Below are positions 22,450 to 56,972 of a DNA stretch of 64,000 nucleotides, in pieces; position 1 is the stretch's first letter, and each line of letters opens with the position of its first letter. The position numbers and the translations under genes are program-made. The stretch covers positions 3,067,324 to 3,131,323 of the forward strand of contig NZ_KZ987724.1 of the NCBI RefSeq assembly GCF_003614185.1, read 5' to 3'. Under the pieces are notes generated by a model, which saw nothing but the letters and a program-made list of their open reading frames with translations, made no database searches and was not told where the DNA came from. The DNA is from Paenibacillus aceti. Its GTDB lineage: Bacteria; Bacillota; Bacilli; Paenibacillales; Paenibacillaceae.

Positions 22450-23139
22450 TTACATCAAACCCTGCTCCTTCAAACTCACGAATTGACCGTCTCCAATCAC
22501 GATGTGATCCAGTACATCAATTCCCACAATTTCACCCGCTTCGCACAGACGGCGCGTCATGCGGATATCTTCCGGACTTGGCGTCGGATCTCCGCTCGGA
22601 TGATTATGGGCGCAGACGATCGATGCACTACTGCATTTAATCGCAGCGCGATACACTTCGCGAGGATGAACGATCGATGCGTTCAAGCTACCAACGGAAA
22701 GCGTCTCTTGAGCAATGATATGATTTTTCGTATTCAAAAAAAGACATACAAAGTGTTCCTTAGGTAAGTATCTGAGCTGCTCCATCAATACGTCTGCCGC
22801 GTCTTGCGGACTACGAATACTCGCAGTCTCCGGCAAACGTGATTTAGCCAGTCTTTGTCCAAGTTCGATCCCAGCCTTGATCTGTACAGCCTTGGCCGTA
22901 CCGACCCCTTTCATTTGCGTTAAGTCGTCTAGACTACGATCTACTAGGCCGCGAATGCCGCCGATCTCAGCGAGAATCCGCTGGGCCATATGGACAGCCG
23001 ACTCATGCTTCGTGCCGGTCCGCAGCAATATCGCTAACAGCTCGGCTTGGCTGAGCGCCCCTGCTCCATATTCCATCATCCGTTCTCTCGGGCGCTCCTC
23101 GCTAGGAATGTCACGCAGCATATAAGGTGCCAAATTCAT
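22450..23139 (-). CDS. radC: RadC family JAMM-domain protein
   Basis: This 229-residue protein has an N-terminal helix-hairpin-helix region (about 55-80, with DLTQMKGVG) and a JAB/MPN+ domain with the metal motif CAHNHPSGDPTPSPED. Its cellular function is unsettled; an early DNA-repair assignment is doubtful. In Bacillus the order is maf-radC-mreB; here maf is truncated just upstream, so radC may have lost its normal promoter. Confidence 0.93.
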   Translation of the reverse strand: MNLAPYMLRDIPSEERPRERMMEYGAGALSQAELLAILLRTGTKHESAVHMAQRILAEIGGIRGLVDRSLDDLTQMKGVGTAKAVQIKAGIELGQRLAKSRLPETASIRSPQDAADVLMEQLRYLPKEHFVCLFLNTKNHIIAQETLSVGSLNASIVHPREVYRAAIKCSSASIVCAHNHPSGDPTPSPEDIRMTRRLCEAGEIVGIDVLDHIVIGDGQFVSLKEQGLM

Positions 23140-23268
23140 CTTGAACCCTCTCCTCCGAATATTAGTTCAGTACCAAGTCTTCTAAAGTCTTAGTCACAAG
23201 CTTCATTCGGAAGGATATGCTTTATCACTTCCTAGTATAAACGGATTTATTTTCTTTTTGTTACATTT

Positions 23269-23412
23269 CTACAATACATATACTCCAAAATTGCGAAGCA
23301 TATCAACGAGCAAGGATAGCGGAAGACCGACAACATTGAAATAGCAGCCTTCTATACCAGTTACGATCGTTGCTCCCAAGCCTTGAATGGCGTAAGCGCC
23401 AGCCTTGTAGTG
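23269..23412 (-). pseudogene. maf: Maf nucleotide pyrophosphatase, C-terminal fragment
   Basis: The minus strand encodes KAGAYAIQG and then a GLPLS-containing tail ending ...GVYVL and TAG at 23269. This is the C-terminal part of the Maf/septum-formation protein family, nucleotide pyrophosphatases acting on non-canonical or modified nucleotides. Homology stops sharply at about KAGAY; the preceding bases belong to the serine recombinase gene. The N-terminal ~150 codons are not in this window. The position before radC is exactly where intact maf lies in Bacillus. Confidence 0.9.
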
Positions 23413-25199
23413 CACGATGGTTCTTTTAAGCTGACAGTATCATTGACGAGTTCCCCGCCATAAAAGTTTGACGCCAAAGTAGAAACTAATGTTTTGATTA
23501 CCGCCCCCGCTTTATAAGTAACGGTGGCTTTATAGCCGTCACCGTTACCATCAGGGTCATGATCCCCACCTTCGTACTGTAGCAATTTCTCAATATTGGC
23601 TTTCAAGTAAATTGTAGGTTCTCCGTCTTCGTTGACAATTATTTTATCAACTAACAAACTAAGATCCTTACGATCAAACATCTCTTTTCCAATAAGTTCA
23701 TCAAGAACACTCAACGCAGTAACTGAACCTTCCTGAAACCTTGAAGATTGCTTTTTAATTTCAGTTAAATCATCAATCTGCCTTTGAATATCTTTGATTA
23801 GCAAACGCTTCTCAGCTTCAATTTCTGCATATGCTTCTGAGATAATTTCCTCATCTTCGGGGCGTCGAGCAACTTCATTTATCCTCTGCTTCATTGTTAC
23901 TTTCAGTTCATCAGAAAGTTGCTTTAGACTTGAATTTAGCCTCTGGAGGGACTTATCTAGATTGTCTGTTCTTTTCACCTGATCTTTCAATTTACCATCG
24001 AAACCACTAATTGCATTGCTCAGTTTTTCTCTGAGGACAACAAGGTGGGCTTTTATTGCAAGCAGCAATGTTCGATCTAAGATGTAATGTGTTGTACAAG
24101 CTATTTTACCTACTCTTCTGTATGTCCCGCATATGTAGGACTTGTGTTTGCCTTCCTTATTAAGAGCAACAAATCCACGTCCGCAATCGGCACAAACAAG
24201 AAAGCCAGTGAATAGGTTTACATGCTTATGTCCCGAACCTCTATAATGCATGGTGAGACGTTTTTCAGCGATCTCCTGTGCAAGTTCGAAATCCTCCACA
24301 CTTACCAGAGGTTCGTGATTATTTGTAAACACATAGTGCTGAGACGGATCGACCCTCAGAATTTTCCCATTGATCTCAGCAAGCTTATATTTACCTTGTC
24401 GAAGTACTCCAATGTAAAAGTCATTTCTTACGATTCTTTGAACCATTCGCTGAACCCAAACATGTGTAACATCTTTTTTGTAAACTTTACCTTCAGCTTC
24501 TTTATTTCTTTGGATAACCATTGATGGAGTAGGCACTTCGTTTTCAGTCAGATAAATACAAATTTTTCTGTAGCCGTCACCTTGTAAATACATTTCGAAG
24601 ATCTTCTTAACCACCCAAGCAGTTTCTTCATCAATAATTACTTTCTCTCGGTTAAGCGGATCTCTCTTGTAGCCGTAAGGAACTGCTGACAAATACTTGC
24701 CATCAATCATTTTGGTCTTGTTGTTATCTTTTATTTTGGTGCTTATATCTTTGACATACCTCTCATTATACCACGTTTTTATTCCAAGTATCGAGTCGTC
24801 ATCAACGAATGAGTCGTAGTTATCACTTATCAGAATTACTCGAACACCTAACCTTTGCATATCTTCGAGAAACAGCAATGTATGAGCATTATGCCGTCCG
24901 ATACGTGATATGTCCTTTACCAAAAGCACAACTTTATACCCATTTTCAATTGCAAAATTAATATCTTTTAACATCCGAGCAAAATCAGGTCTGTTGAAAG
25001 AATATCCGCTGTAATTATCATCTTCGTACAAATTCTTTTCAGAAATTTCTTTCCCAAACACCTCTTTTGCATGATTCGAAATTATCTTCTTTTGGGCAAT
25101 AATTGTAGCGTAATTCTTCCTATCTTCATCGCGGCTAATGCGTGTATAACCAATCAACAAACACTTATCTCCAGAATTTACAACCTTAAAATTAGTCAT
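23361..25199 (-). CDS. Large serine recombinase (island integrase)
   Basis: This 612-residue site-specific recombinase probably catalyses integration and excision of the island. The N-terminal resolvase domain (about 12-160) has YTRISRDE with the catalytic Ser and the later KDISRIGR motif. A recombinase domain (about 175-290) follows. The zinc ribbon uses CADCG and, later, [12 protein letters not shown] (about 335-365), and a long coiled coil lies at about 385-480. The last 16 or so residues are encoded by maf sequence read in another frame, so the gene crosses attL. It is the first gene at the island edge, as is usual for integrases. Confidence 0.93.
23395..23425. other. Left attachment junction (attL) of the genomic island
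   Basis: Maf coding homology ends here and the recombinase gene begins, so the crossover lies within these ~30 bases. Composition also shifts from moderate G+C to A+T rich to the right. Large serine recombinases share only a few bases between attB and attP, so the exact core cannot be fixed without the right end. Confidence 0.75.
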
Positions 25200-25825: not shown

Positions 25826-27256
25826 TCACTCCGGATAATAAAAGTAAATCCCAAGCCCCTCGACATAAAAATCACCGTTGATTTTCTTCTCGCGAACTTT
25901 AATGCCTTGCTCGATGAGAACTCTGCTGAACATCTCCCAAAACTTTGTGGAGCCTATGGACTTTACATTGTCCAAGCCATTATTATCTGCCCATCTTGAA
26001 AAATCTCGCTTAAAGTCTGATCTTAAGGTCTGTTCACCTTCAGCCCAAAATACCCGCGCTTTGAAATACTCGGGGATCGGGTTTTGACTGACCTTATAAT
26101 CCTCTAATGCTTTTTCACACACTTTACTTTCGGTCAGATTAAAGTTGTTATCGATTAAACGAGCCAAGCCTTTCATTGCAAAATTCAGTATGCCTGGTAA
26201 TTCTGTCAGCAGCTTATCGAGAAGTGATTTGTCCATGTAGCTTACCCCCTCAATAGGGGCTTCGCCTGCTCTCAACTCCCGATAAATTTTGTTGAAAGGA
26301 ATGATTTGAAGTCTTCGGAAATACCCATTTGTTAAATCATTTGAATCCATCATACTGTTCAGCAATACAATCGTCTTAGCAAACAATCTTGTGTTGAAAG
26401 AAGCTTTGAATTTCTGCTCGACGTTTACCGCATCTCCACCAGTTAAGATTTTGAAGTTCTGAGTGTTGAATTTCCGATCAAATTCATTCTCGGTCGAAAC
26501 ATTCACCAGCTTTCCCGGCAGGTTTTGCATACCAAAACGACCACCAAGATCTTTCAACGAGACATTTGACACATTTTCAATTCCGATAAGGTGACGGATG
26601 ACTTCTGATAATACACTCTTACCATTTGACCCCGAACCTATGAAGAAAAACGCCTTTTGAATCTTAATGTCCGGTATAAAGCAGTAACCCATTATTTCCT
26701 GAACAAGTATGATACGCTCCCTATCACCTTCAAAGATGTCGAATAGGAATTCTTCAAACTTCGGACACGATGCTGATCCGTCATATTCAATCGGAATTTG
26801 AATGGTGGATAAGTAGCTTGGGTCATGATTAATAAATTCCATCGAATAAAGATTTAACATTCCATTCGTTAAGTTTATAAGCCCCTTTTCGGGATTCATT
26901 TCTTCAACAAATGGTATCTCTCTCCTTAAAGCCTCGAAGTACTCACCCTCCCATTTCCGACACCAGATATCCGCTTTTGCTTCATGAATAATACCGCGGC
27001 AGATCGCCTTTAACATCCTGTCGTTCATTTCGATATAATACCCCTTACTACAATAGGCATAAATCTGCGCATTACCTAGTTGAACGAGATGCATTCGACT
27101 TAATGCGTAAGTGGCGAATGTATTAGCGTTCATTTCTAGATCTCTCTTCCCGTAAGTAATCCCCCGTTCTTTAAGCGCGAGACGCTCATCGAGCTGCTCT
27201 ACAATTGGTGAGACACAGGATTTCATGACTTCAAGAGTTTGATATGATGCTGCCAT
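25826..27256 (-). CDS. Superfamily 3 helicase, phage/plasmid primase-associated (D5-like)
   Basis: This 476-residue protein resembles the D5_N plus SF3 ATPase module that unwinds DNA for plasmid, phage and island replication. The Walker A is GSGSNGKSVLSE near residue 210. Downstream come the sensor region with KTIVLLNSMMDSND and the arginine-finger region YFRRLQIIPF. The C-terminus (about 380-476) is a winged-helix-like tail. There is no primase-polymerase domain at the N-terminus. The start is the ATG at 27256; GCTCAAGAGTC lies 41 bases upstream in the promoter region. Likely the island's replication protein. Confidence 0.88.
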   Translation of the reverse strand: MAASYQTLEVMKSCVSPIVEQLDERLALKERGITYGKRDLEMNANTFATYALSRMHLVQLGNAQIYAYCSKGYYIEMNDRMLKAICRGIIHEAKADIWCRKWEGEYFEALRREIPFVEEMNPEKGLINLTNGMLNLYSMEFINHDPSYLSTIQIPIEYDGSASCPKFEEFLFDIFEGDRERIILVQEIMGYCFIPDIKIQKAFFFIGSGSNGKSVLSEVIRHLIGIENVSNVSLKDLGGRFGMQNLPGKLVNVSTENEFDRKFNTQNFKILTGGDAVNVEQKFKASFNTRLFAKTIVLLNSMMDSNDLTNGYFRRLQIIPFNKIYRELRAGEAPIEGVSYMDKSLLDKLLTELPGILNFAMKGLARLIDNNFNLTESKVCEKALEDYKVSQNPIPEYFKARVFWAEGEQTLRSDFKRDFSRWADNNGLDNVKSIGSTKFWEMFSRVLIEQGIKVREKKINGDFYVEGLGIYFYYPE

Positions 27257-27297
27257 TTTTAAGCACACCTTTCTCGGGTTTGTATATCACTCTCCGA

Positions 27298-35662: not shown

Positions 35663-36853
35663 TTAAATAAACATTTGTTGCATTAATCCAGCTTTAAGCT
35701 GATTAAGAGCCTTCACTTTGGTTTCTTCTTTCAAGATTTTTTCTTCTAAAGTAAACAGAAATGAAGCAATTTTTTTCTGTTCTTCTAGTGAAGGTATTGG
35801 AATGTCTAGGCTTCTAATGGAATCCCACTCAGTTCTCGGCATCTTGGAACCTGAAGATACATTCGCTGCCTGTTGAAACATATCACTTTGTATTATAAAG
35901 TACAAATACTCATTGCAAACTTTAGAGTTAGTTGTTGTTATAACCCAAATCTCTGATGAGCATATCCCATCGAAAGTTGCAAACCAATACTTCTTAAGAT
36001 ATGGTCGTAATTTCCCAAATAAAACAGCACCTTTACTGAATTGATTTTTAGTGCTTTGCTGCTCATGCGATGAGAAATATCCGTTGATTTGACCTCTATT
36101 ACCAACAATATTCTCGAGCTCAATGCATGGTATGTTCGTCTTACTTTGTGGATTTATCTTTTTGGAACTGTTTGTGGCTATTTGCTCAAATATTTCTATG
36201 TTCCATTCAGGAAAATCCTGACCTCTATCATCTTTGAAACGGAGTTCCTGCGAATAAATCTTTTGTAACATACCCTTCTTGAACAACTCCAATTGTTCGA
36301 TCTTATCCTGTTGCTTCTCAATCTTTCGATCAAGTAATGAAAAGAAGTCCCCGATCTTTTTTTGCTCTAAAAAAGTTGGAATTGACCGTTTGATTTTTAT
36401 GAATTGCGAAAAGTGAACTCTTTGCTTTTCGATTAATGAACCAGTAGCAATTGATTTATATTGTAAAATCATTTTTCCTGTCTTCAATAAATTTTCAAAG
36501 AATTCACTATTAAATCCTTCTTTTGTTCTAAAGACATTATAATAGCCAGAAACAGCTATACTCTGACCCCCATTATATTTTGCAACTGCACCCAATGTAA
36601 GGTTCATTGGATTGTACACAAATTCATCGTCTTTGACAATCTTATAATTATCCTCATCTTTTTTTAAGAGAAAAGAACGTTCATACCGTTCGCTTTTTGG
36701 GGTAACACCTTTCTCTAGAGTCAAACTAAAAAGTGGGTAATTAGCTGTATCACTAGTTCGTTCATTTACTTCTTCAAAAACCTCGCTGAAGTCCACTTCT
36801 TTCCACTCTTCAGTAAACTCATTGAAACGAATCGATGGCACTCTAGTACTCAT
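35663..36853 (-). CDS. hsdS: Type I restriction specificity subunit HsdS
   Basis: HsdS determines the DNA target of the type I enzyme. The 396-residue protein shows two target-recognition domains. Each is followed by a conserved helix (FLEQKKIGDFFSLLDRKI at about 160-180 and LEEQKKIASFLFTLEEKI near the end), which set the spacing between half sites. Its start overlaps the hsdM stop by four bases. Confidence 0.93.
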   Translation of the reverse strand: MSTRVPSIRFNEFTEEWKEVDFSEVFEEVNERTSDTANYPLFSLTLEKGVTPKSERYERSFLLKKDEDNYKIVKDDEFVYNPMNLTLGAVAKYNGGQSIAVSGYYNVFRTKEGFNSEFFENLLKTGKMILQYKSIATGSLIEKQRVHFSQFIKIKRSIPTFLEQKKIGDFFSLLDRKIEKQQDKIEQLELFKKGMLQKIYSQELRFKDDRGQDFPEWNIEIFEQIATNSSKKINPQSKTNIPCIELENIVGNRGQINGYFSSHEQQSTKNQFSKGAVLFGKLRPYLKKYWFATFDGICSSEIWVITTTNSKVCNEYLYFIIQSDMFQQAANVSSGSKMPRTEWDSIRSLDIPIPSLEEQKKIASFLFTLEEKILKEETKVKALNQLKAGLMQQMFI

Positions 36854-38409
36854 CCGCTTACCCCCAATTCCTTTAAATATGAAGCTAGGGTAGCATCAAT
36901 TTGAGCAAGTTCATTATCAATTTCTTGTAACCGAGTTTTAACTGACACAATATCTATCACTTCTTCATCATCAAATGTATCGACATACCGTGGAATGTTC
37001 AAGTTATAGTCATTGGTCTTAACTTCATCGATACTAGCTGCATAAGAGTATTTGTCTATCTTACTTCGATTGGCGTAAGTATCGACAATTTTGTCCACAT
37101 CTTCATCACGAAGTCTATTCTGATGTTTTCCCTTTTCAAAATCATTGGATGCATCGATAAATAGAATATTGTCATTATCTTCCCGGCATTTTTTGAACAC
37201 AAGGATGCAAGTCGGAATATTAGTACCAAAGAAAATATTTGCCGGTAAGCCGATTACCGCATCCAAGTAGTTTTTTTCTTCGATCAAGTATTTACGAATT
37301 ACTCCTTCCGCCGCGCCGCGAAACAATACCCCATGAGGAAGGACAACTGCCATTGTTCCGTTATCATCAAGATGATGAATCATATGTTGAACAAAAGCGA
37401 AATCGGCTTTGGATGCGGGAGCTAGTTTACCGTAGGCACTAAACCGCTCATCTTGCAGGAACTTTTCATCAGAACTCCATTTCGCTGAGTATGGAGGATT
37501 TGCTACTACAGCTTCAAAGCGCATATCAAGATGCCGCGGCTCATCCAAACTATCGGCATTTTGAATATCGAAGTTATGATAAGACACATCATGCAGGAGC
37601 ATGTTCATACGAGCCAAGTTATAAGTAGTTGAGGTTTTCTCTTGCCCGTAAAACTTTCTGACTCTCGCTTCCTTGGCAACCCTCAAGAGCAACGATCCTG
37701 AACCGCAAGTCGGGTCATAGACATTTCTTAAGTCATTCTTACCCAGTGTAACTATCTTAGCAATGATTTTGGAAACTTGTGGTGGAGTATAGAACTCACC
37801 AGCTTTTTTCCCCGCATTGGCAGCAAACTGTCCGATCAAATACTCATAAGCATCGCCCAGAACGTCAATGTCCACATCATCATGTAAGAAGGGAATATCA
37901 TTGATATTGACCATGACCTTAGCGATCAGCTTGGAACGAGACTTTACATCACGACCCAATTTCGAGGAAGCCAAGTCCATGTCATCGAAAAGGTGTTGGA
38001 AGTCATCTTGACTCGTCGCTCCGAGTGTAGATTCGGTTACTTTGTTGATTGCTGCTTGCAGCATTTCAATATCGAAATTGCCTTGCTCTCCCTTACCAAT
38101 TTCCTCAATCATGCTCGAAAAAAGGTAGTCTGGTTCAATGACGTAGCCAATTTCCTGAATTAGCTGATCTTTTAAAGCGTCTCGATATGCTTGATCCTTC
38201 CAAGCATCTCTGTAAGAAACATTATCTTCCTGAAGAAGACTATTAACCCGATCTTCCGTTTTGTCCGACAAGTAACGATAAAAGATCAGACCAAGAATAT
38301 ATTTCTTGAATTCGTAAGCTTCAAGTTGACCACGAAGATCATTCGCCATATCCCAAAGCTTCTTATGTAACTCGGCTTGTTGATGACGCTGTAACTCAGT
38401 CGTTGTCAT
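36850..38409 (-). CDS. hsdM: Type I restriction-modification methyltransferase HsdM
   Basis: HsdM methylates adenine using S-adenosylmethionine. The 519-residue protein has an N-terminal HsdM helical domain, the SAM motif YDPTCGSGSLLL and the catalytic NPPYSAKW motif. The ATG at 38409 has AAAGGAGGAGG upstream and overlaps the stop of the short HsdS-like gene (ATGA). Confidence 0.95.
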   Translation of the reverse strand: MTTTELQRHQQAELHKKLWDMANDLRGQLEAYEFKKYILGLIFYRYLSDKTEDRVNSLLQEDNVSYRDAWKDQAYRDALKDQLIQEIGYVIEPDYLFSSMIEEIGKGEQGNFDIEMLQAAINKVTESTLGATSQDDFQHLFDDMDLASSKLGRDVKSRSKLIAKVMVNINDIPFLHDDVDIDVLGDAYEYLIGQFAANAGKKAGEFYTPPQVSKIIAKIVTLGKNDLRNVYDPTCGSGSLLLRVAKEARVRKFYGQEKTSTTYNLARMNMLLHDVSYHNFDIQNADSLDEPRHLDMRFEAVVANPPYSAKWSSDEKFLQDERFSAYGKLAPASKADFAFVQHMIHHLDDNGTMAVVLPHGVLFRGAAEGVIRKYLIEEKNYLDAVIGLPANIFFGTNIPTCILVFKKCREDNDNILFIDASNDFEKGKHQNRLRDEDVDKIVDTYANRSKIDKYSYAASIDEVKTNDYNLNIPRYVDTFDDEEVIDIVSVKTRLQEIDNELAQIDATLASYLKELGVSG

Positions 38410-39113
38410 CTTTTTACCTCCTCCTTTAGATACCCTATCAATAGCTGTTTGATATATTGCTGTTCCCATACGATTCTCTCCTGATGTAGACGATTTTTTC
38501 GATGTAATAATCTGTGGACGCTACCAATCTTCACTTGATCGTCCATAGGTGGCAAAATAATTTCCAATGCCCTAAGCATTTGAATTGACAAAGCTGCTAT
38601 ACTGGAACCCTGCGTAGCGATCTTCAATTGTTTGCGACAGTCTGGATGATCATTTATAAACCACTCCAGATAGTCGGGATGTAATTCACTTGTAGGCTCG
38701 ATTATGGCAAAGTTAGAAGGAATCAACTTTCCGACATGCTCCTGCTGCAATGCTACTGCTCGTTGTCCAGTCAAGCTAATTAGGACTAAACCCTCCCTAG
38801 CGAGCGGTAAAGACCCTAAACGATCCTGATCTACATGAACATCTTGATGATTTTCTACCGATGAAGTGGGATCAGGACTTAACCACTCATTCATTTCTTT
38901 CATCGTGTAGACCGGAAGCTTTACTGCCTCTAATGAAGGTGACGTCTGGATACGAGAAAGAAACGCCCCTTGCACCACCGTTGCACATTGTTCTAGATTC
39001 AAACCAACCCTCCCCTTTGCTATTTTTCCAAATAGCATTGAAACCAACAATTTCATGATAATAAAAAACAGCAGAAAAGGCAAGTCCTTTTCTGCTATTT
39101 TTATAAATAGCAC
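38406..39113 (-). CDS. Short HsdS-like protein (single recognition domain)
   Basis: This protein resembles half of an HsdS. It has one target-recognition-like domain (about 35-180) and a C-terminal conserved-helix segment (MDDQVKIGSVHRLLHRKNRLHQE). It may be an accessory specificity unit or regulator of the enzyme. The GTG at 39113 overlaps the hsdR stop by one base, but none of the possible starts (39113, 39056, 39038) has a good ribosome site. A terminator-like hairpin lies inside the first codons, and the segment after GTG (LFIKIAEK) resembles the one after the ATG at 39038 (LFGKIAKG). Confidence 0.65.
   Translation of the reverse strand: MLFIKIAEKDLPFLLFFIIMKLLVSMLFGKIAKGRVGLNLEQCATVVQGAFLSRIQTSPSLEAVKLPVYTMKEMNEWLSPDPTSSVENHQDVHVDQDRLGSLPLAREGLVLISLTGQRAVALQQEHVGKLIPSNFAIIEPTSELHPDYLEWFINDHPDCRKQLKIATQGSSIAALSIQMLRALEIILPPMDDQVKIGSVHRLLHRKNRLHQERIVWEQQYIKQLLIGYLKEEVKR
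39070..39096 (-). terminator. Hairpin inside the hsdR/HsdS-like junction
   Basis: AGCAGAAAAGG-CAAGT-CCTTTTCTGCT is a perfect 11-bp stem, followed on the minus strand by GTTTTTTATT. It should terminate or attenuate transcription after hsdR, uncoupling restriction from modification genes. Confidence 0.7.
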
Positions 39114-41866
39114 TATGAATAACGTGTGGTGTGCTCGGTAATGAACTCAATGATCCGTTGAATCATTGCTCTTTTTTGAAGGAAAGGCAACCTAACAACA
39201 TCGCTTATCTCTTGTTGGTTAACAAGCCCACCGTACTCATATTCCTGCACAAAGCTTTGGATTACTTCAGGCGATAACCCCACTTCACCTGCAAATGCCT
39301 CGATTTCCTTCATACGTTCTTCTTGTTCGAAAGCATTGTAGTTATCGTCTACCGAATCTGCATTGGTTAATGTCGGTACTACTTTCCGCAAGAAGTCCTT
39401 CAGCAAATTGGCTTTTAGTCTGAGTTGCTCATTGTCAGCCCGATCGATCTCATCGACAATATCTTTTACTGACTTGTCTCGCTGCTCCTGATTATCGAAA
39501 TCAATGTTTCGGATCAGATTCATAATGTAACTAACATTAATCCGATCTGTATGCATCAGCTCGATTAGGAAGTCAACGTTCGCCAAGATCGATTCTTTAC
39601 CTCCGCCGCGCTTAACTTCATCATAAATACGGAGATACTTGCTCTTGTAATCCTGGTACTCCTGTTCAGAAATACCCAATCGAGCCGGGTCGAATTCAAA
39701 CTCGGTAAAAGTTTGGAGACGAGTCAGATATTTGGTAAGCTCACGGAAGCTAACCACAAACTCTTGTTTTTCTTCCTCCCGCTCCAAAGCATCTACTTCC
39801 GCTGGCGTAGCGGCAAGAGCTTTGACTTTTACCAGAGCTGCCCTGAACATTTGAAGGTATTCTTCGTAACTCTTCATCAGGACATCATCGACGCTATCTG
39901 TCTTTGAGAACAACTTGATTGCCTCGTCCGTATCTTCCTTGAGATTGCGGAAGCATACAATATTCCCATAAGGTTTGGTCGCTTTCTCTGTCCGATTGGT
40001 TCGGGAGAAGGCTTGAATCAAATTATGATATTTTAAGAAGCGATCCATGTAGAGAATATTCAAAGTTTTGCTGTCGAATCCTGTCAAAAAGATGTTGACT
40101 ACCAGTAAGATATCGATCTGAGCAGTCTTGACTTTACGAGAAACATCGGCAAAATATCCTTGGTACTTATCTGTTGAGAAGTTGGTTCCAAACATAGCAT
40201 TGTAGTCCTTGATGATACGTTCAAGGCTATCCCGAGAATGCTCGTCTTGTCCATCGCCTTCACTGTCCTCATTCTGCCCATAGGTGAAAATGCCGGCAAT
40301 CTTCAAGTTATGTGACATTGACTTGAAGGTGTCGTAGTACTTAACCAGCATCGGGATGCTATCCACAGTGAATAGTCCTGTATACCCCTTACTGCGTGAC
40401 TTCCGATCATGATGAGTTATGATGTTCTCAGCAATCAAACGAATACGATCATCATGCATCCAGACTTCATCAGTCAGAATTCCTTTGACGCGGGTCTGAT
40501 CCTTTTCGTTAATTGAAACATCAACCGTTTGTATGTAATCCACCGAGAACCCCAAGACATTGCCATCATGAATCGCATCTTTAATCAGATACGTATGTAG
40601 ACATTTCTCAAAAATATCGGCGGTTACCCGACCGTCTTGGCTTTTGTTTTCCTCGAACAATGGTGTCCCCGTGAAACCAAAGTACTGCGCCTCTTTAAAA
40701 TGATTGTCAACGAGTCTTTTCATCTTACCAAACTGACTGCGATGACACTCATCAATAATGAAGACAACCCGCTCCTGTTGATACGGCTTCATGATCTCCT
40801 CATATCGAGGATTTTTTATTGCGTTCGCCATCTTTTGAATTGTAGTAACGATCAACGGCTTCGTTAAGTCCGAAATTTGTGCCACCAATTTTTCAGTATC
40901 GTCTGTCATGTCTACTGAATCCGGTTCAAATTTGTTAAACTCCGCCAAGGTCTGACTATCCAAATCCTTACGGTCAACAAGGAAGAAGACCTTCTTTATA
41001 TGCGGTTCGTTCGCAAGGATTTGACTCGACTTAAATGAAGTTAATGTCTTTCCGCTACCAGTTGTGTGCCAGATATAACCGTTGTTCTTGGTTTCCAAGG
41101 CACGCTTAATAAGTGCTTCAACTGCATAGACCTGATACGGTCGCATGACCATTAATAGCTTCTCGGTCTCATTCAATACCATGTACCGGGCTATCATCTT
41201 AGCCATGTGGCACTTTTCTAGGAAGTTGGACGTGAAATCACTTAGATTGGTGATACGATTATTTTCTGCATCCGACCAGAAGAAGGTGTGCGAAAACAAG
41301 ATGTCACCATCAGAGTTTGCAAAATATTTCGTATCAACCCCATTGCTGACAACAAACAGCTGCAGATAGCGATATAACCCCCTGAAGGAGTGTTTTCGAT
41401 ACCGTTGGATTTGATTGAATGCTTCTTTAAAATCTAAGCCGCGGCGCTTTAACTCGATCTGCACTACAGGTAAGCCGTTAATGAAAATTGTTACATCATA
41501 ACGATTTTTATACGTCCCTTCGACTGTTGTCTGATTGGTGACCTGAAAAATGTTTTTACACCAATCACGGGTATTCATCAACTCAAGATAGACCTCTGTT
41601 CCGTCATCACGCTGGAACACTTGTTTATCCCTCAGAATCTTTGCTGAGTCAAAAATGCTCTTCCCATCAATCTGTGTTAGGAATCGGCTGAACTCCGCGT
41701 CTGTTAACGGCTGACCATTTAATTTCTTCTCATTGAACTTATTCAGTTGCTGTTTGAAGTTTCCTAAAAGTGAATCGTAATCATTTATTGTTACTCGCTC
41801 GTACCCTTGACGAACAAGTTGCTCGATTAGATTTTTCTCAAGCTGGGCTTCCGACTGATAGGACAA
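39113..41866 (-). CDS. hsdR: Type I restriction endonuclease subunit HsdR
   Basis: HsdR translocates and cuts unmethylated DNA. The 917-residue protein has an N-terminal nuclease domain with VVQIELKRRG (ELK catalytic part). The SF2 helicase follows, with HTTGSGKTLTSF (Walker A), IIDECHRSQFG (DECH box) and FSRTNRTEKA (motif VI). The C-terminal helical domain binds the methylase core. The TTG start at 41866 has GAGGAGG eight bases upstream. Confidence 0.95.
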   Translation of the reverse strand: MSYQSEAQLEKNLIEQLVRQGYERVTINDYDSLLGNFKQQLNKFNEKKLNGQPLTDAEFSRFLTQIDGKSIFDSAKILRDKQVFQRDDGTEVYLELMNTRDWCKNIFQVTNQTTVEGTYKNRYDVTIFINGLPVVQIELKRRGLDFKEAFNQIQRYRKHSFRGLYRYLQLFVVSNGVDTKYFANSDGDILFSHTFFWSDAENNRITNLSDFTSNFLEKCHMAKMIARYMVLNETEKLLMVMRPYQVYAVEALIKRALETKNNGYIWHTTGSGKTLTSFKSSQILANEPHIKKVFFLVDRKDLDSQTLAEFNKFEPDSVDMTDDTEKLVAQISDLTKPLIVTTIQKMANAIKNPRYEEIMKPYQQERVVFIIDECHRSQFGKMKRLVDNHFKEAQYFGFTGTPLFEENKSQDGRVTADIFEKCLHTYLIKDAIHDGNVLGFSVDYIQTVDVSINEKDQTRVKGILTDEVWMHDDRIRLIAENIITHHDRKSRSKGYTGLFTVDSIPMLVKYYDTFKSMSHNLKIAGIFTYGQNEDSEGDGQDEHSRDSLERIIKDYNAMFGTNFSTDKYQGYFADVSRKVKTAQIDILLVVNIFLTGFDSKTLNILYMDRFLKYHNLIQAFSRTNRTEKATKPYGNIVCFRNLKEDTDEAIKLFSKTDSVDDVLMKSYEEYLQMFRAALVKVKALAATPAEVDALEREEEKQEFVVSFRELTKYLTRLQTFTEFEFDPARLGISEQEYQDYKSKYLRIYDEVKRGGGKESILANVDFLIELMHTDRINVSYIMNLIRNIDFDNQEQRDKSVKDIVDEIDRADNEQLRLKANLLKDFLRKVVPTLTNADSVDDNYNAFEQEERMKEIEAFAGEVGLSPEVIQSFVQEYEYGGLVNQQEISDVVRLPFLQKRAMIQRIIEFITEHTTRYS

Positions 41867-52757: not shown

Positions 52758-54287
52758 TTATATTGCAAGAAGACCCCTCATAGTCTTAATATCATCTCTC
52801 ATCTTGTTAACAGAATCTCTGTTTTTCTGAACAACTTCTGATAGATCACGAATGACTTTTTCAAGTCGATATGTTTTTGATTCTTCTGAACCATCAGCGG
52901 CTCCACCGTCTTCATCGAAGTTTATATACCCATAATACACTTCGATTTCACCTTCTGAAATTTTTTCTGCATTCTTATGGAGCACAACCCATAAAGAATC
53001 CGAATCGTCATCCCTCGGATCGAGTTGACCTTCCACAAATAGCTTGACTGTATTACCTTCAAGATCAATAAAGCTTAACAACTCATCAACTGCAAAGTAA
53101 TCCTTGTATTTTATACTGTCTCGAGTGATTTCTAGATCTTCTAATGAAAACAAGTGTTCATTCACGAATTCCATAACTGCATCTCTTACTTCTTCTTCCG
53201 TGAAACTAATATCATGATTGATTTGTAAGAACGGCGAGTTTACGTTATAAATCTGAATCTTTGCAACTAAGTCCGCAATGGGCTTAGCATTGCTATCAGT
53301 TTCAAACTGATAGTACTCATCAATGGCATCTTCAATCTCGGCACCTAAAGAAGAAAGCAAAGACTCAATCGTATTAGTTAGCTCTTCTACCTCAGTGCTC
53401 TCACTAATACCTTCTATGTATGCATCATCAGAGGATAATGACGACAACCCAACTGATTCTCTTTCCATTTTATTCAAATCTCGACGAGAATCCTCGACCA
53501 TCTGCCTTCTTTCCTCTTCCTCCTCTTCTATCAATTGTTGATAAATGTTAGCTTCTTGGGTCTCTTCGGAAAAATCCTTAATTAAAGTTTTACTGTAGTG
53601 TAACCTGTAGTTGAATAACTGAAGTAAGTTATTTTGTCTTAGTGCCTCTTCGATATGTGGGTGAATCTGTTCTTTCTCCGTCTTATCGGTTCCTTTTGAG
53701 AAGTCTTTGTGATTTCGTGTGATAAAATAAATTCGATCTTCATCATTAATAGTCACAAAATCGCGGATATTTATTAATGTCTCAATAATCGTAGCATCTG
53801 CCCAAGATTCCTTACCCTCGATATGAAACGGACATTGCTTATATAGTTTTCTTCTCTGAACTTTTAGTAATAAATCTCTGTTCTCCTCAAGTCTTATCAC
53901 ATTTCTGTATTGCAATAATCCCGTTATCTTTTGAGTAGCATCATTTATATATCGCTCTTCATTTCTTCCAAACTCATCAACCATATTTCCAAGAGCTTGC
54001 TTTAACGGGCTAATCTTTTCATTATACTTCCTGATCTCCTCTACGTGATTTATCCAATAAACTTTATTAATTGATTTCCCAGCTTCCTCCACCAATTTAC
54101 CTACATTCTTGACCTCACCAGCAATATGTCTCTTTACTTCAGTTTCAATAATAGCAGGTAACAAAATCTTCACTTGATCATGATCCAGCAACATTTTTAA
54201 CGTCTCGTAGGAATCTGCCGTATGTGATTTATTCCTAGATACGATCATGTCGATATAGATGTTGGTGTCAAGCAGTAAATACTTCAT
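52758..54287 (-). CDS. PIN-domain (DUF4935-like) ribonuclease-type protein
   Basis: The 509-residue protein has an N-terminal PIN domain. Its acidic residues are visible in LLLDTNIYID (residue ~5), LPAIIETEVKRH, SWADATIIET and TRNHKDFS, the usual quartet. The C-terminal half is long, acidic and helical, without a known domain. PIN enzymes cut RNA or DNA. I chose the ATG at 54287 with AGGGGAT upstream. It lies 114 bases after the UvrD-like helicase gene on the same strand; the pair looks like a two-gene defence or repair cassette. Confidence 0.75.
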   Translation of the reverse strand: MKYLLLDTNIYIDMIVSRNKSHTADSYETLKMLLDHDQVKILLPAIIETEVKRHIAGEVKNVGKLVEEAGKSINKVYWINHVEEIRKYNEKISPLKQALGNMVDEFGRNEERYINDATQKITGLLQYRNVIRLEENRDLLLKVQRRKLYKQCPFHIEGKESWADATIIETLINIRDFVTINDEDRIYFITRNHKDFSKGTDKTEKEQIHPHIEEALRQNNLLQLFNYRLHYSKTLIKDFSEETQEANIYQQLIEEEEEERRQMVEDSRRDLNKMERESVGLSSLSSDDAYIEGISESTEVEELTNTIESLLSSLGAEIEDAIDEYYQFETDSNAKPIADLVAKIQIYNVNSPFLQINHDISFTEEEVRDAVMEFVNEHLFSLEDLEITRDSIKYKDYFAVDELLSFIDLEGNTVKLFVEGQLDPRDDDSDSLWVVLHKNAEKISEGEIEVYYGYINFDEDGGAADGSEESKTYRLEKVIRDLSEVVQKNRDSVNKMRDDIKTMRGLLAI

Positions 54288-54401
54288 TGTGATATCCCCT
54301 TTATCTTTCCAGCTTGACTTCAACAGCGGAAAGTACGAGTATTGAAACTATTCGGACAAATAATCATAACAGCCTTTGCATTGTTAGTGTCGAGCTGCCC
54401 C

Positions 54402-56972
54402 TTAATGGGCAGCTATTACGTGAACTGGACTGACCTTATCAGAATCGATAATCGGTAAGTTCAGTTCTTTTAAGAATCTTGATCGCCCACATGGCTTATC
54501 TTGAATTGTCTTAGGAAAGGTCACATATAGCTTCTGTTTGGCTCTTGTAACTGCAACATACATCAGTCTTCGTTCTTCTTCCATCGTTGTCGGTGGTTCA
54601 GCTTTTTCTCTACACGATTGAACATCCACATCTTTGAGTTCTTCGGCATATTTTGAAGGCAGACCCCCATCATTGCAACCAATGACAAATACATTTTCAA
54701 AAGCTAACCCCTTGCTTCCGTGAATCGTTAAGAAATACAGGGCATTGTACTTTTTGTCATGGTACTTCTCCAGATTTTCCTTCATTTCATCCTTACGCCG
54801 CTTCATCCTCTCATGGAAACCGAGTAAGTCATTCCAAGTGCTGTATTTTTCGAGTTCCTTAAGAATCCATTCCTTTTCCTCATCAGTTACATTATCTTTA
54901 ACTCTAGGAAAAGCTAAGAATTGCTCCGCGACTTCCTTCATGTTAACCGGCTTTTCTTGTTTCAGATTAATAAGATGAGTCAGGTACTGTTTTAGTGGGA
55001 GCGTGTCCTTGGTTTTAGACTTTTCAATGACTAGCGCACAAGCCTCGCGAATAACGTCAGATAAAGTAGCGATGTCTAAGGTTTGATACCACTGTTCAAT
55101 AGCGTGCTTACTGACGAAATGATGTCCTAGTGCGTTAGTCAAAATGGACCTCCACAATTGAAGCTTGTTACCTCTTGAAGCCATTAACTCTTGCCACATA
55201 CCAAACGCATTATTAAAATCCTGAATAGAAAAGATACCCATAACATCGTCCATTTTCTCGATGACATACGGAACCCCTTTAACATCTAGGGCTTGGAACA
55301 TACTTTGAAGCTGTCTTCTCGATCTATACAGAACTGTTGACTTTGTATAGTTGATGGGATCGACTTTGCCCTCCAATACAAAGGGTTCTAGCTTACCGAT
55401 CTCCTGGGATCTCGACAAAATCCAGTGAGCTTCTTCTTTGGTATCTGGACAGCCTACGATGATCGCTTCGCCATCATCTTTATGGAATGCATCCATCGAC
55501 TTGGGTATACGATCATGCTTATTCTCAGAGATAACCCAGTTACCAGCATCTACAATCTTCCGCTTTGAGCGATAGTTCCTCATCAATCTTATCTCATGAC
55601 TGGTGTAGACTTTTGGAAGATCCTTAATATAGCTAGGATCTGACCCCCTAAAAGCATAGATCGACTGGTCATCGTCCCCCACTATGATTAATTTCGAAGC
55701 ACTTGTTGGGGGACAAATTAGTTTGACCGTTTCCATCTGTAACGGATTAATATCTTGGAACTCATCAATGAAGATATAATCGTATCTGTTCTGGACGAAC
55801 TCTCTTGCTTCTGGATACTGAAGCAATGCATCGTATAAGTTAATTAGGAAGTCATCATATACAACAATCTCGTTGTCCTTCCTTACCTGATTCAACTCAT
55901 TAATCATCATGTTGAAGCGGACGCTAACAGGAATATCTTCCTTATCATCGATTACACTGTCGAAATGCTTCTCGATATAATCGGTCATTTGGTCAACTGA
56001 GAACCCCATATTAATCCAGAAGCTTATACGATCAAAAATCGTCTTTTCGTTTTCCTTGTCAAACTTAAACAGTCTGTATTTGTTAATCAGCTTACGCAAC
56101 TCTCTCTTGTACTCAAACTCGCCTTCATCAGCATTTCCGTTTTGAATCCCTATTGAGGAATAAGCAGGATTCTGCCTCTTTAACTGATTGAACAAGCTCA
56201 TGAAAGTGCCATGAAAAGTACTGACATTGACCTTTGAATTTTCCACCCCAAGGAAGAGATTTACTCGTCCTTCCATCTCTTCTTTAGCCTTACGAGTAAA
56301 AGTCATCATACAGATCCGATTGGGGTTAACATTCTTCATCTGAATAAGGTAAGCAACCTTCGCACAGATCGTTTCAGTTTTACCACTACCAGCACCTGCA
56401 ATAATTTGAAGATGCTTTTCCATACCGTATCGGATAGCTTCAACCTGATTTTCATTGAATGGGTTACCTTTTATCTTTTCAGCAATTTCAAAGAAGCTGC
56501 TGTCCCAATCTGTCTTCGCTACAGGATTATCTGATTGGGGAATCTGGATTTCTAAGATTTCACCGAATCTCGACTTATAATAAGAATGTTCACTTTCGAT
56601 CTTAAGGTGCTTTTGCTGCAGGGCTTTATAATTATTCTTAGTCGCGGTTAGTTGATTCGAGAGTTCTCCATGACTGTCCGATAGATCAGAGTACTCTTTC
56701 TGCAGCTTCTTAAAATCAGAATCCCTCCTATAGAATTCTTGCTCAAGTGATTTATACTTTGTCACCATTTCAGAATTTATTTGCTGCATTTTCTCGATGG
56801 TTTTCCTTGCCGCGGCGAAATCATCACTAACTTTATTAAGCTTGGACGCTATAATAGCATTCTCATAATTGGCTTTGTCCAGCCTACTACGGAGATGAGT
56901 AACCTCTTCCAACAGTTTGTCTTTGCCTGTCAGCTTATCAACCAAGTTCTTCAATACCTTTAAGTCCTCCAA
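54402..56972 (-). CDS. UvrD/Rep-type SF1 helicase with coiled-coil N-terminus
   Basis: The 856-residue protein has a coiled coil at about 1-150. The SF1A helicase core follows: AGAGSGKTETICA (Walker A, near 197), FIDEFQDINPLQ (motif II), VGDDDQSIYAFRG (motif III), HGSKGLAFENVFV (motif V) and YVAVTRAKQKLYV (motif VI). It is not UvrD or PcrA itself: the N-terminus is extra and the motifs diverge. The start is TTG at 56972, or TTG at 56954, which follows AAAGG. A palindromic operator precedes it. Confidence 0.88.
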   Translation of the reverse strand: MEDLKVLKNLVDKLTGKDKLLEEVTHLRSRLDKANYENAIIASKLNKVSDDFAAARKTIEKMQQINSEMVTKYKSLEQEFYRRDSDFKKLQKEYSDLSDSHGELSNQLTATKNNYKALQQKHLKIESEHSYYKSRFGEILEIQIPQSDNPVAKTDWDSSFFEIAEKIKGNPFNENQVEAIRYGMEKHLQIIAGAGSGKTETICAKVAYLIQMKNVNPNRICMMTFTRKAKEEMEGRVNLFLGVENSKVNVSTFHGTFMSLFNQLKRQNPAYSSIGIQNGNADEGEFEYKRELRKLINKYRLFKFDKENEKTIFDRISFWINMGFSVDQMTDYIEKHFDSVIDDKEDIPVSVRFNMMINELNQVRKDNEIVVYDDFLINLYDALLQYPEAREFVQNRYDYIFIDEFQDINPLQMETVKLICPPTSASKLIIVGDDDQSIYAFRGSDPSYIKDLPKVYTSHEIRLMRNYRSKRKIVDAGNWVISENKHDRIPKSMDAFHKDDGEAIIVGCPDTKEEAHWILSRSQEIGKLEPFVLEGKVDPINYTKSTVLYRSRRQLQSMFQALDVKGVPYVIEKMDDVMGIFSIQDFNNAFGMWQELMASRGNKLQLWRSILTNALGHHFVSKHAIEQWYQTLDIATLSDVIREACALVIEKSKTKDTLPLKQYLTHLINLKQEKPVNMKEVAEQFLAFPRVKDNVTDEEKEWILKELEKYSTWNDLLGFHERMKRRKDEMKENLEKYHDKKYNALYFLTIHGSKGLAFENVFVIGCNDGGLPSKYAEELKDVDVQSCREKAEPPTTMEEERRLMYVAVTRAKQKLYVTFPKTIQDKPCGRSRFLKELNLPIIDSDKVSPVHVIAAH

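Follow-up and report, generated by a model that had tools for sequence, protein, structure and literature searches.

The window analysed here (64,000 nucleotides of the Paenibacillus aceti genome; G000, contig C1, 3067324-3131323) contains one end of a large integrative element that has inserted in the maf gene and that provides this gene, in frame, with a new 3' end. The element measures 86,487 bp (86.5 kb) from core to core, and the N-terminal part of maf was found 46 kb beyond the window, at C1:3177196-3177663 on the minus strand. The frame of this N-part crosses the junction without a shift, encodes Maf positions 115-186 for a second time and then ends at a stop codon. Judging from the selection on the element-encoded end (the tail) and from a structure model, this re-ended maf is probably functional: the hybrid protein would be made, fold as modelled and work, and Maf would most likely be active with the element in place.

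At the near end of the element, an orphaned remnant of the native maf C-terminus lies between radC and a large serine recombinase gene. The initial annotation had proposed that a genomic island splits maf at this point, and that the maf N-terminus with a matching half-site should be sought at the other island edge. This was confirmed: the N-terminus is present 86.5 kb away, and joining both host flanks at the GG core gives an uninterrupted Maf, in G000 as well as in 5/5 other hosts (6/6). A Maf profile search of G000 detected only the hybrid frame and the remnant, and no complete maf elsewhere. In the remnant, positions 145-187 of the Pfam Maf profile match window 23287-23412 (E 2.4e-12), the last 12-14 nt of this match being an element look-alike of the KAG codons. 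The remnant had been recognised correctly as the maf C-terminus beside radC; it was put at about 43 codons and has 42 and a stop, and its proposed end at 23425 takes in about 25 nt of element DNA. The gene order maf-radC is also found in P. forsythiae and P. rhizophilus.

The site of exchange could be read from six attL/attR pairs. The base to the left of GG in attL (G000 T, G030 C, G171 T, G092 G, G480 C, G483 A) follows the element arm, and the same base in attR (T, T, C, C, A and G, in the same genome order) follows the host. To the right of GG, the attL base is that of the host, and attR has G in every case. Exchange therefore took place at the GG with which the Gly codon of K-A-G-(A/S)-Y begins, and by this sequence comparison the dissimilar attP and attB share a 2-bp GG core. 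All empty sites examined (30/30) contain the KAG motif, followed by A (27) or S (3). From GACACCACAATGCACC onward the right arm is invariant over about 35 nt in all six elements, as expected of an attP arm. When the element ends are joined, an imperfect dyad about GG is seen in the six elements (12-14 of 30 positions, with 7.5 expected for equal bases and no shuffle control). A crossover at the Tyr codon was rejected, since the residue after KAG in attR is D, G or A, versus A or S in the empty sites. The GGC-TAT form of G030 is probably an allele of the element, since G483 has it too.

The recombinase was used to search three partly overlapping genome samples, all including G000, at the level of the family (296 genomes, E up to 1e-60), the order (393 genomes, E up to 1e-80) and the class (398 genomes, E up to 1e-80). 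Close recombinases were present in 4, 5 and 2 genomes, seven distinct genomes in all; identity to the G000 protein was 95% in G030, 97% in G171, 96% in G480, 70% in G483, 64% in G092 and 50% in G414. In 7/7 genomes with a recombinase relative, maf is interrupted at the same motif. Six of the seven have the hybrid frame and, at the recombinase end, the remnant, and in 6/6 of these the 3' end of the target gene is supplied in frame by the element. In the seventh (G414, 8% contamination) the host frame is truncated; a complete 193-aa maf follows, within a shorter element of about 13.5 kb, and then the remnant. A Maf was found in 57/59 genomes searched (G000 included), and two of these 57, G000 and G030, are hybrids. 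No relative of the recombinase was present among the 9 stretches obtained when a viral contig collection was searched with it, and in the phage and plasmid collections all matches were below 60% identity (332 and 148 records, respectively).

The replacement is not collinear with native maf. It adds 60 residues, including an internal duplication, because about 35 Maf positions ahead of KAG (115 to ~149) are repeated by the element ahead of a second KAG. Read in frame, the attP arm forms a linker into LGDIGQYR, a stretch shared with Mafs that have a long hairpin, such as that of Paenibacillus sp. cl123, which is 80% identical over the element tail. Between the T-G ahead of the hairpin and the last KAG, all six hybrids have a gap of 100 residues and all six joined genes one of 40. 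Of 108 further loci examined for this gap, 78 were readable and 30 were lost to the motif pattern or to cut frames. Among these 78 other Mafs it is 38-45 residues in 71 and 70-108 in 7, all 7 belonging to Paenibacillus or Gorillibacterium. Extra hairpin sequence is therefore tolerated in nature.

The tail is strongly conserved. In five hosts it is identical at 103/103 residues (counted from DTTM; 104 with the preceding Tyr), with a mutual identity of 45-60% for the host N-parts of the same five Mafs; the G483 tail is identical at 87/103 residues (85%). Four of the DNA copies are identical over 309 nt. The G171 copy differs by 9 nt in 8 codons, all synonymous. Of the 69 nt at which the G483 copy differs, 48 are third positions, and 40 of its changed codons are synonymous and 16 non-synonymous. 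For the latter copy this corresponds to a dN (non-synonymous divergence) of 0.10, a dS (synonymous divergence) of 1.4-1.8 and a dN/dS of about 0.06. None of the six copies contains a stop or frameshift. This substitution pattern indicates that the tail is selected as protein, under strong purifying selection. In a scan of 84,980 species, which may leave out near relatives of the window, the same tail was found at 99-100% identity in 2 of the 80 loci listed out of 183 matched.

In the mechanism that we propose, the large serine recombinase would insert the 86.5-kb integrative element into KAG(A/S)Y directly after the GG of the Gly codon. The sequence to the right of the crossover has to serve as attP arm and is therefore not free to encode the YGIQG that is due after KAG. 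The arm would be read in frame as a linker, and from within the variable hairpin onward the element would encode Maf anew as far as the stop, with a second KAG motif in the form KAG(S)YGAQG. The resulting Maf of about 253-265 residues (counted from four before the LAS motif) would consist of the host N-part (1 to ~110), a looped-out stretch made up of the old strand, helix and KAG of the host plus the att linker, and the element-encoded C-part. Excision would return native maf.

One hybrid was modelled and gave a complete Maf fold. A number of points weigh against an active hybrid. In the alignment behind the model natural Mafs were matched to the element copy, which partly builds in the looped-out duplicate. 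In a balanced alignment with N-fragments (A3), MAFFT still placed the N-fragments on the element copy in the rows shown. Of 44 further Mafs located, 32 were included in alignment A2. A single-sequence AlphaFold control failed (pLDDT, the predicted local distance difference test, 31.7), and the restored KAG loop was modelled at pLDDT 61 (block 211-220). In addition, part of the purifying selection on the tail could predate its capture, and Maf may be dispensable, as 2/59 genomes gave no Maf match.

The same absence from two genomes, which suggests that loss may be tolerated, would suit a plain disruption, in which the hybrid is dead and the tail a passenger from attP capture out of an older maf; the 60 extra residues and the duplicated segment point the same way. 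Against it stand the low dN/dS and the open frame of all six copies, the same gap in every hybrid, within the range of natural long-hairpin Mafs, and the complete modelled fold, and we consider this explanation unlikely. A maf that is simply a broken gene was rejected as the less likely reading, the frame at the far end being open and selected. The initial annotation had raised the idea of regulated gene integrity, with maf inactive while the element is in and restored by timed excision, as in sigK/skin and spsM/SP-beta. It is true that a large serine recombinase element divides maf, and that the remnant is intact in 6/6 hosts, so exact excision would restore the gene. Against a broken maf awaiting excision stands the fusion of the N-part to a selected in-frame replacement tail, and also the related element of G414, which brings a whole maf; we regard such regulation as very improbable, and this part of the annotation was not upheld. 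The same holds for its suggestion that the insertion may alter expression of radC-mreBCD: window 22900-23700 has 1 promoter-like and 0 terminator-like sites, versus 1.4 and 0.8 in shuffled sequences. An assembly or binning artefact is next to inconceivable, as both junctions lie within one contig of 5.57 Mb and recur in five other genomes. The re-ended, probably active maf is the reading that we prefer.

Nine other Mafs have a tail of the element type: those of P. forsythiae, P. rhizophilus, P. cymbidii, P. hemerocallicola, P. montaniterrae, Gorillibacterium, Paenibacillus sp. cl123, YN15 and one metagenome-assembled genome. Seven of the nine have the long hairpin. In the flanks examined (downstream only 0.5 kb for L097 and 4 kb for L094) none has a recombinase of this type. 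Possibly, although we are inclined to doubt it, the element family has acted as a vector that repeatedly and permanently replaced the C-terminal third of Maf, and the nine would be fossils in which the element is gone and the tail was left. In trees that omit L019, L020 and L111, the C-parts of the nine and the six element tails form one clade (support 99/97), and the N-parts of the nine require 5 label changes, at least 2 of them forced by well-supported branches. On the other hand, an approximately unbiased test does not reject a single N-part clade (p 0.07; the group was picked after the first tree), and since similarity of the tail was the basis on which the nine were picked, their joint C-part clade partly reflects how they were chosen. 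Downstream of eight of the nine (all except L097), nothing convincing was found in a search for native maf C-terminus remnants (best E 0.031). Of the 72 element open reading frames (ORFs), only one had a match in the same eight flanks: a protein of 462 aa with a Cu-amine-oxidase domain, 64% identical over 146 aa in L098, and the match may just reflect this common domain. In 8/8 genomes searched (all except L096) there was no Maf piece outside the one frame. Just as possibly, the element acquired its tail from the lineage of these nine Mafs. In three Paenibacillus with a tail-type maf (L090, L093 and L098) no RadC motif was present within 10 kb downstream, and the gene upstream of maf is presumably an N-acetylmuramoyl-L-alanine amidase.

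Table 1. Features at the maf insertion site and on the element (window coordinates unless stated otherwise).
Feature	Position	Strand	Basis or details
radC, host gene downstream of maf	22450-23139	-	
Native maf C-terminus, 42 codons + stop, orphaned, host side of attL	23269-23398	-	Translation, Maf profile, joining to far N-part
attL crossover dinucleotide GG (bases 1 and 2 of the KAG Gly codon)	23399-23400	-	Six attL/attR pairs
Element left arm of attachment site, mimics Maf AAR-GCN-GG codons	23401-23444	-	
Left 40.6 kb of element	23401-64000, on to G000:C1:3177208 outside the window	not assigned	
Large serine recombinase, 612 aa	23361-25199	-	Pfam Resolvase, Recombinase and Zn_ribbon_recom, all above cut-offs
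P4-family primase/helicase	25826-27268	-	TIGR01613, 190 bits (cut-off 108.7); D5_N, DUF5906
Type I restriction-modification cassette (hsdS, hsdM, second hsdS-like frame with borderline match, hsdR)	35663-41866	-	

The 612-aa recombinase presumably integrated the element. Its frame overlaps the maf remnant by 38 nt, and its final ~12 codons (window 23361-23398) are host maf DNA read in another frame. Its C-terminus would consequently differ by host and in the circular form; in G092 the stop precedes the site. The G092 recombinase is 64% identical to that of G000, yet 57/72 ORFs are at least 85% identical and the tail is the same. This suggests that the recombinase end has been swapped and that both target and tail were retained.

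The complete element has a G + C content of 0.41 and contains 72 non-overlapping ORFs of at least 80 aa. At 85% identity or more, 53 of the 72 are found in G030, 55 in G480, 44 in G171 and, as mentioned, 57 in G092; 34 are found in all four. In G483, 37/72 have a match of any kind (24 to 93% identity). Candidate defence genes are carried on the element. HsdS (window 35663-36853) shares only 27-29% identity with its counterpart in four sister elements, against 90-98% for HsdM and HsdR, a contrast that indicates specificity swapping. In the G483 element (L172-L175), HsdR (93%), HsdM (87%) and a 721-aa neighbour (87%) are much closer to G000 than the backbone giants (56-61%), which suggests recent module exchange between divergent elements. 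At window 52758-56972 a 521-aa PIN-domain protein adjoins an 856-aa GajB-like UvrD helicase; the pair is matched in G030 and not in G480, G171 and G092, and is possibly a Gabija-like pair without GajA.

Three conserved giant proteins have almost no family match (1670 aa, L006:13496-18508; 1725 aa, L005:14601-19778; 1164 aa, L007:452-3946), and they may form the transfer apparatus of a type of element not yet described. The 1164-aa protein has a weak match to a DNA translocase coupling protein (6o1w, E 0.0024) and to an FtsK-like phrog (E 0.00037); the comparison of the giants to PDB covered the 1670-aa and 1164-aa proteins. No Pfam match to a relaxase or VirB4 was found in the 48 of the 72 ORFs that were scanned (one of the 48 in part).

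An element with a serine recombinase would thus be able to insert midway through a conserved motif and yet spare its host. The route would be to supply the end of the protein again from a variable loop onward, the codons of the att site being absorbed into that loop. Should the hybrid be active, a single fixed tail of 104 residues (identical in five copies, 85% in the sixth) complements N-parts with a mutual identity of only 43-60%, which amounts to a natural experiment in domain compatibility and opens a route for mobile elements to reshape core proteins. A gene that looks truncated next to a recombinase has not necessarily lost its function. Among the titles and opening lines of abstracts listed in a literature search, none described an element that sits in maf and brings a replacement tail. 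The main text of PMC10083194 does not contain the word maf, and its supplementary lists of recombinase targets could still include the gene. In the available text of PMC8627217 and PMC12607529, the letters maf occur in MAFFT, in a strain name and in a file format.

A replacement sequence in attP is, according to the part of PMC10111431 available to us, the usual case for integration into target genes (icd, many tRNA genes). The general rule is already in print there, and the maf case is a variant of integration with gene restoration. As in that type, the element in maf carries the 3' end of its target and the recombinant gene stays open. It differs in that the replacement is out of register, starting about 35 Maf positions back before the crossover and giving an internally duplicated protein, and in that it has a serine recombinase with a 2-bp core, attL and attR sharing almost no sequence. 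With skin in sigK, SP-beta in spsM and A118 in comK it has in common that a large serine recombinase element lies within a host gene and that precise joining is possible. The comK target of A118 is broken while the element is integrated. In the source text available for skin and SP-beta their targets are likewise broken with the element in, whereas maf has an open replacement frame. TndX and TnpX are the large serine recombinases of Tn5397/Tn4451-type elements. TndX is among the annotated plasmid matches of the maf recombinase (31.6% over 71% of the query), and TnpX is its best PDB match (2mhc), with the same kind of domain make-up. Identity to these is low, and the maf recombinases differ from them in hitting one conserved target, maf, in 7/7 genomes examined.
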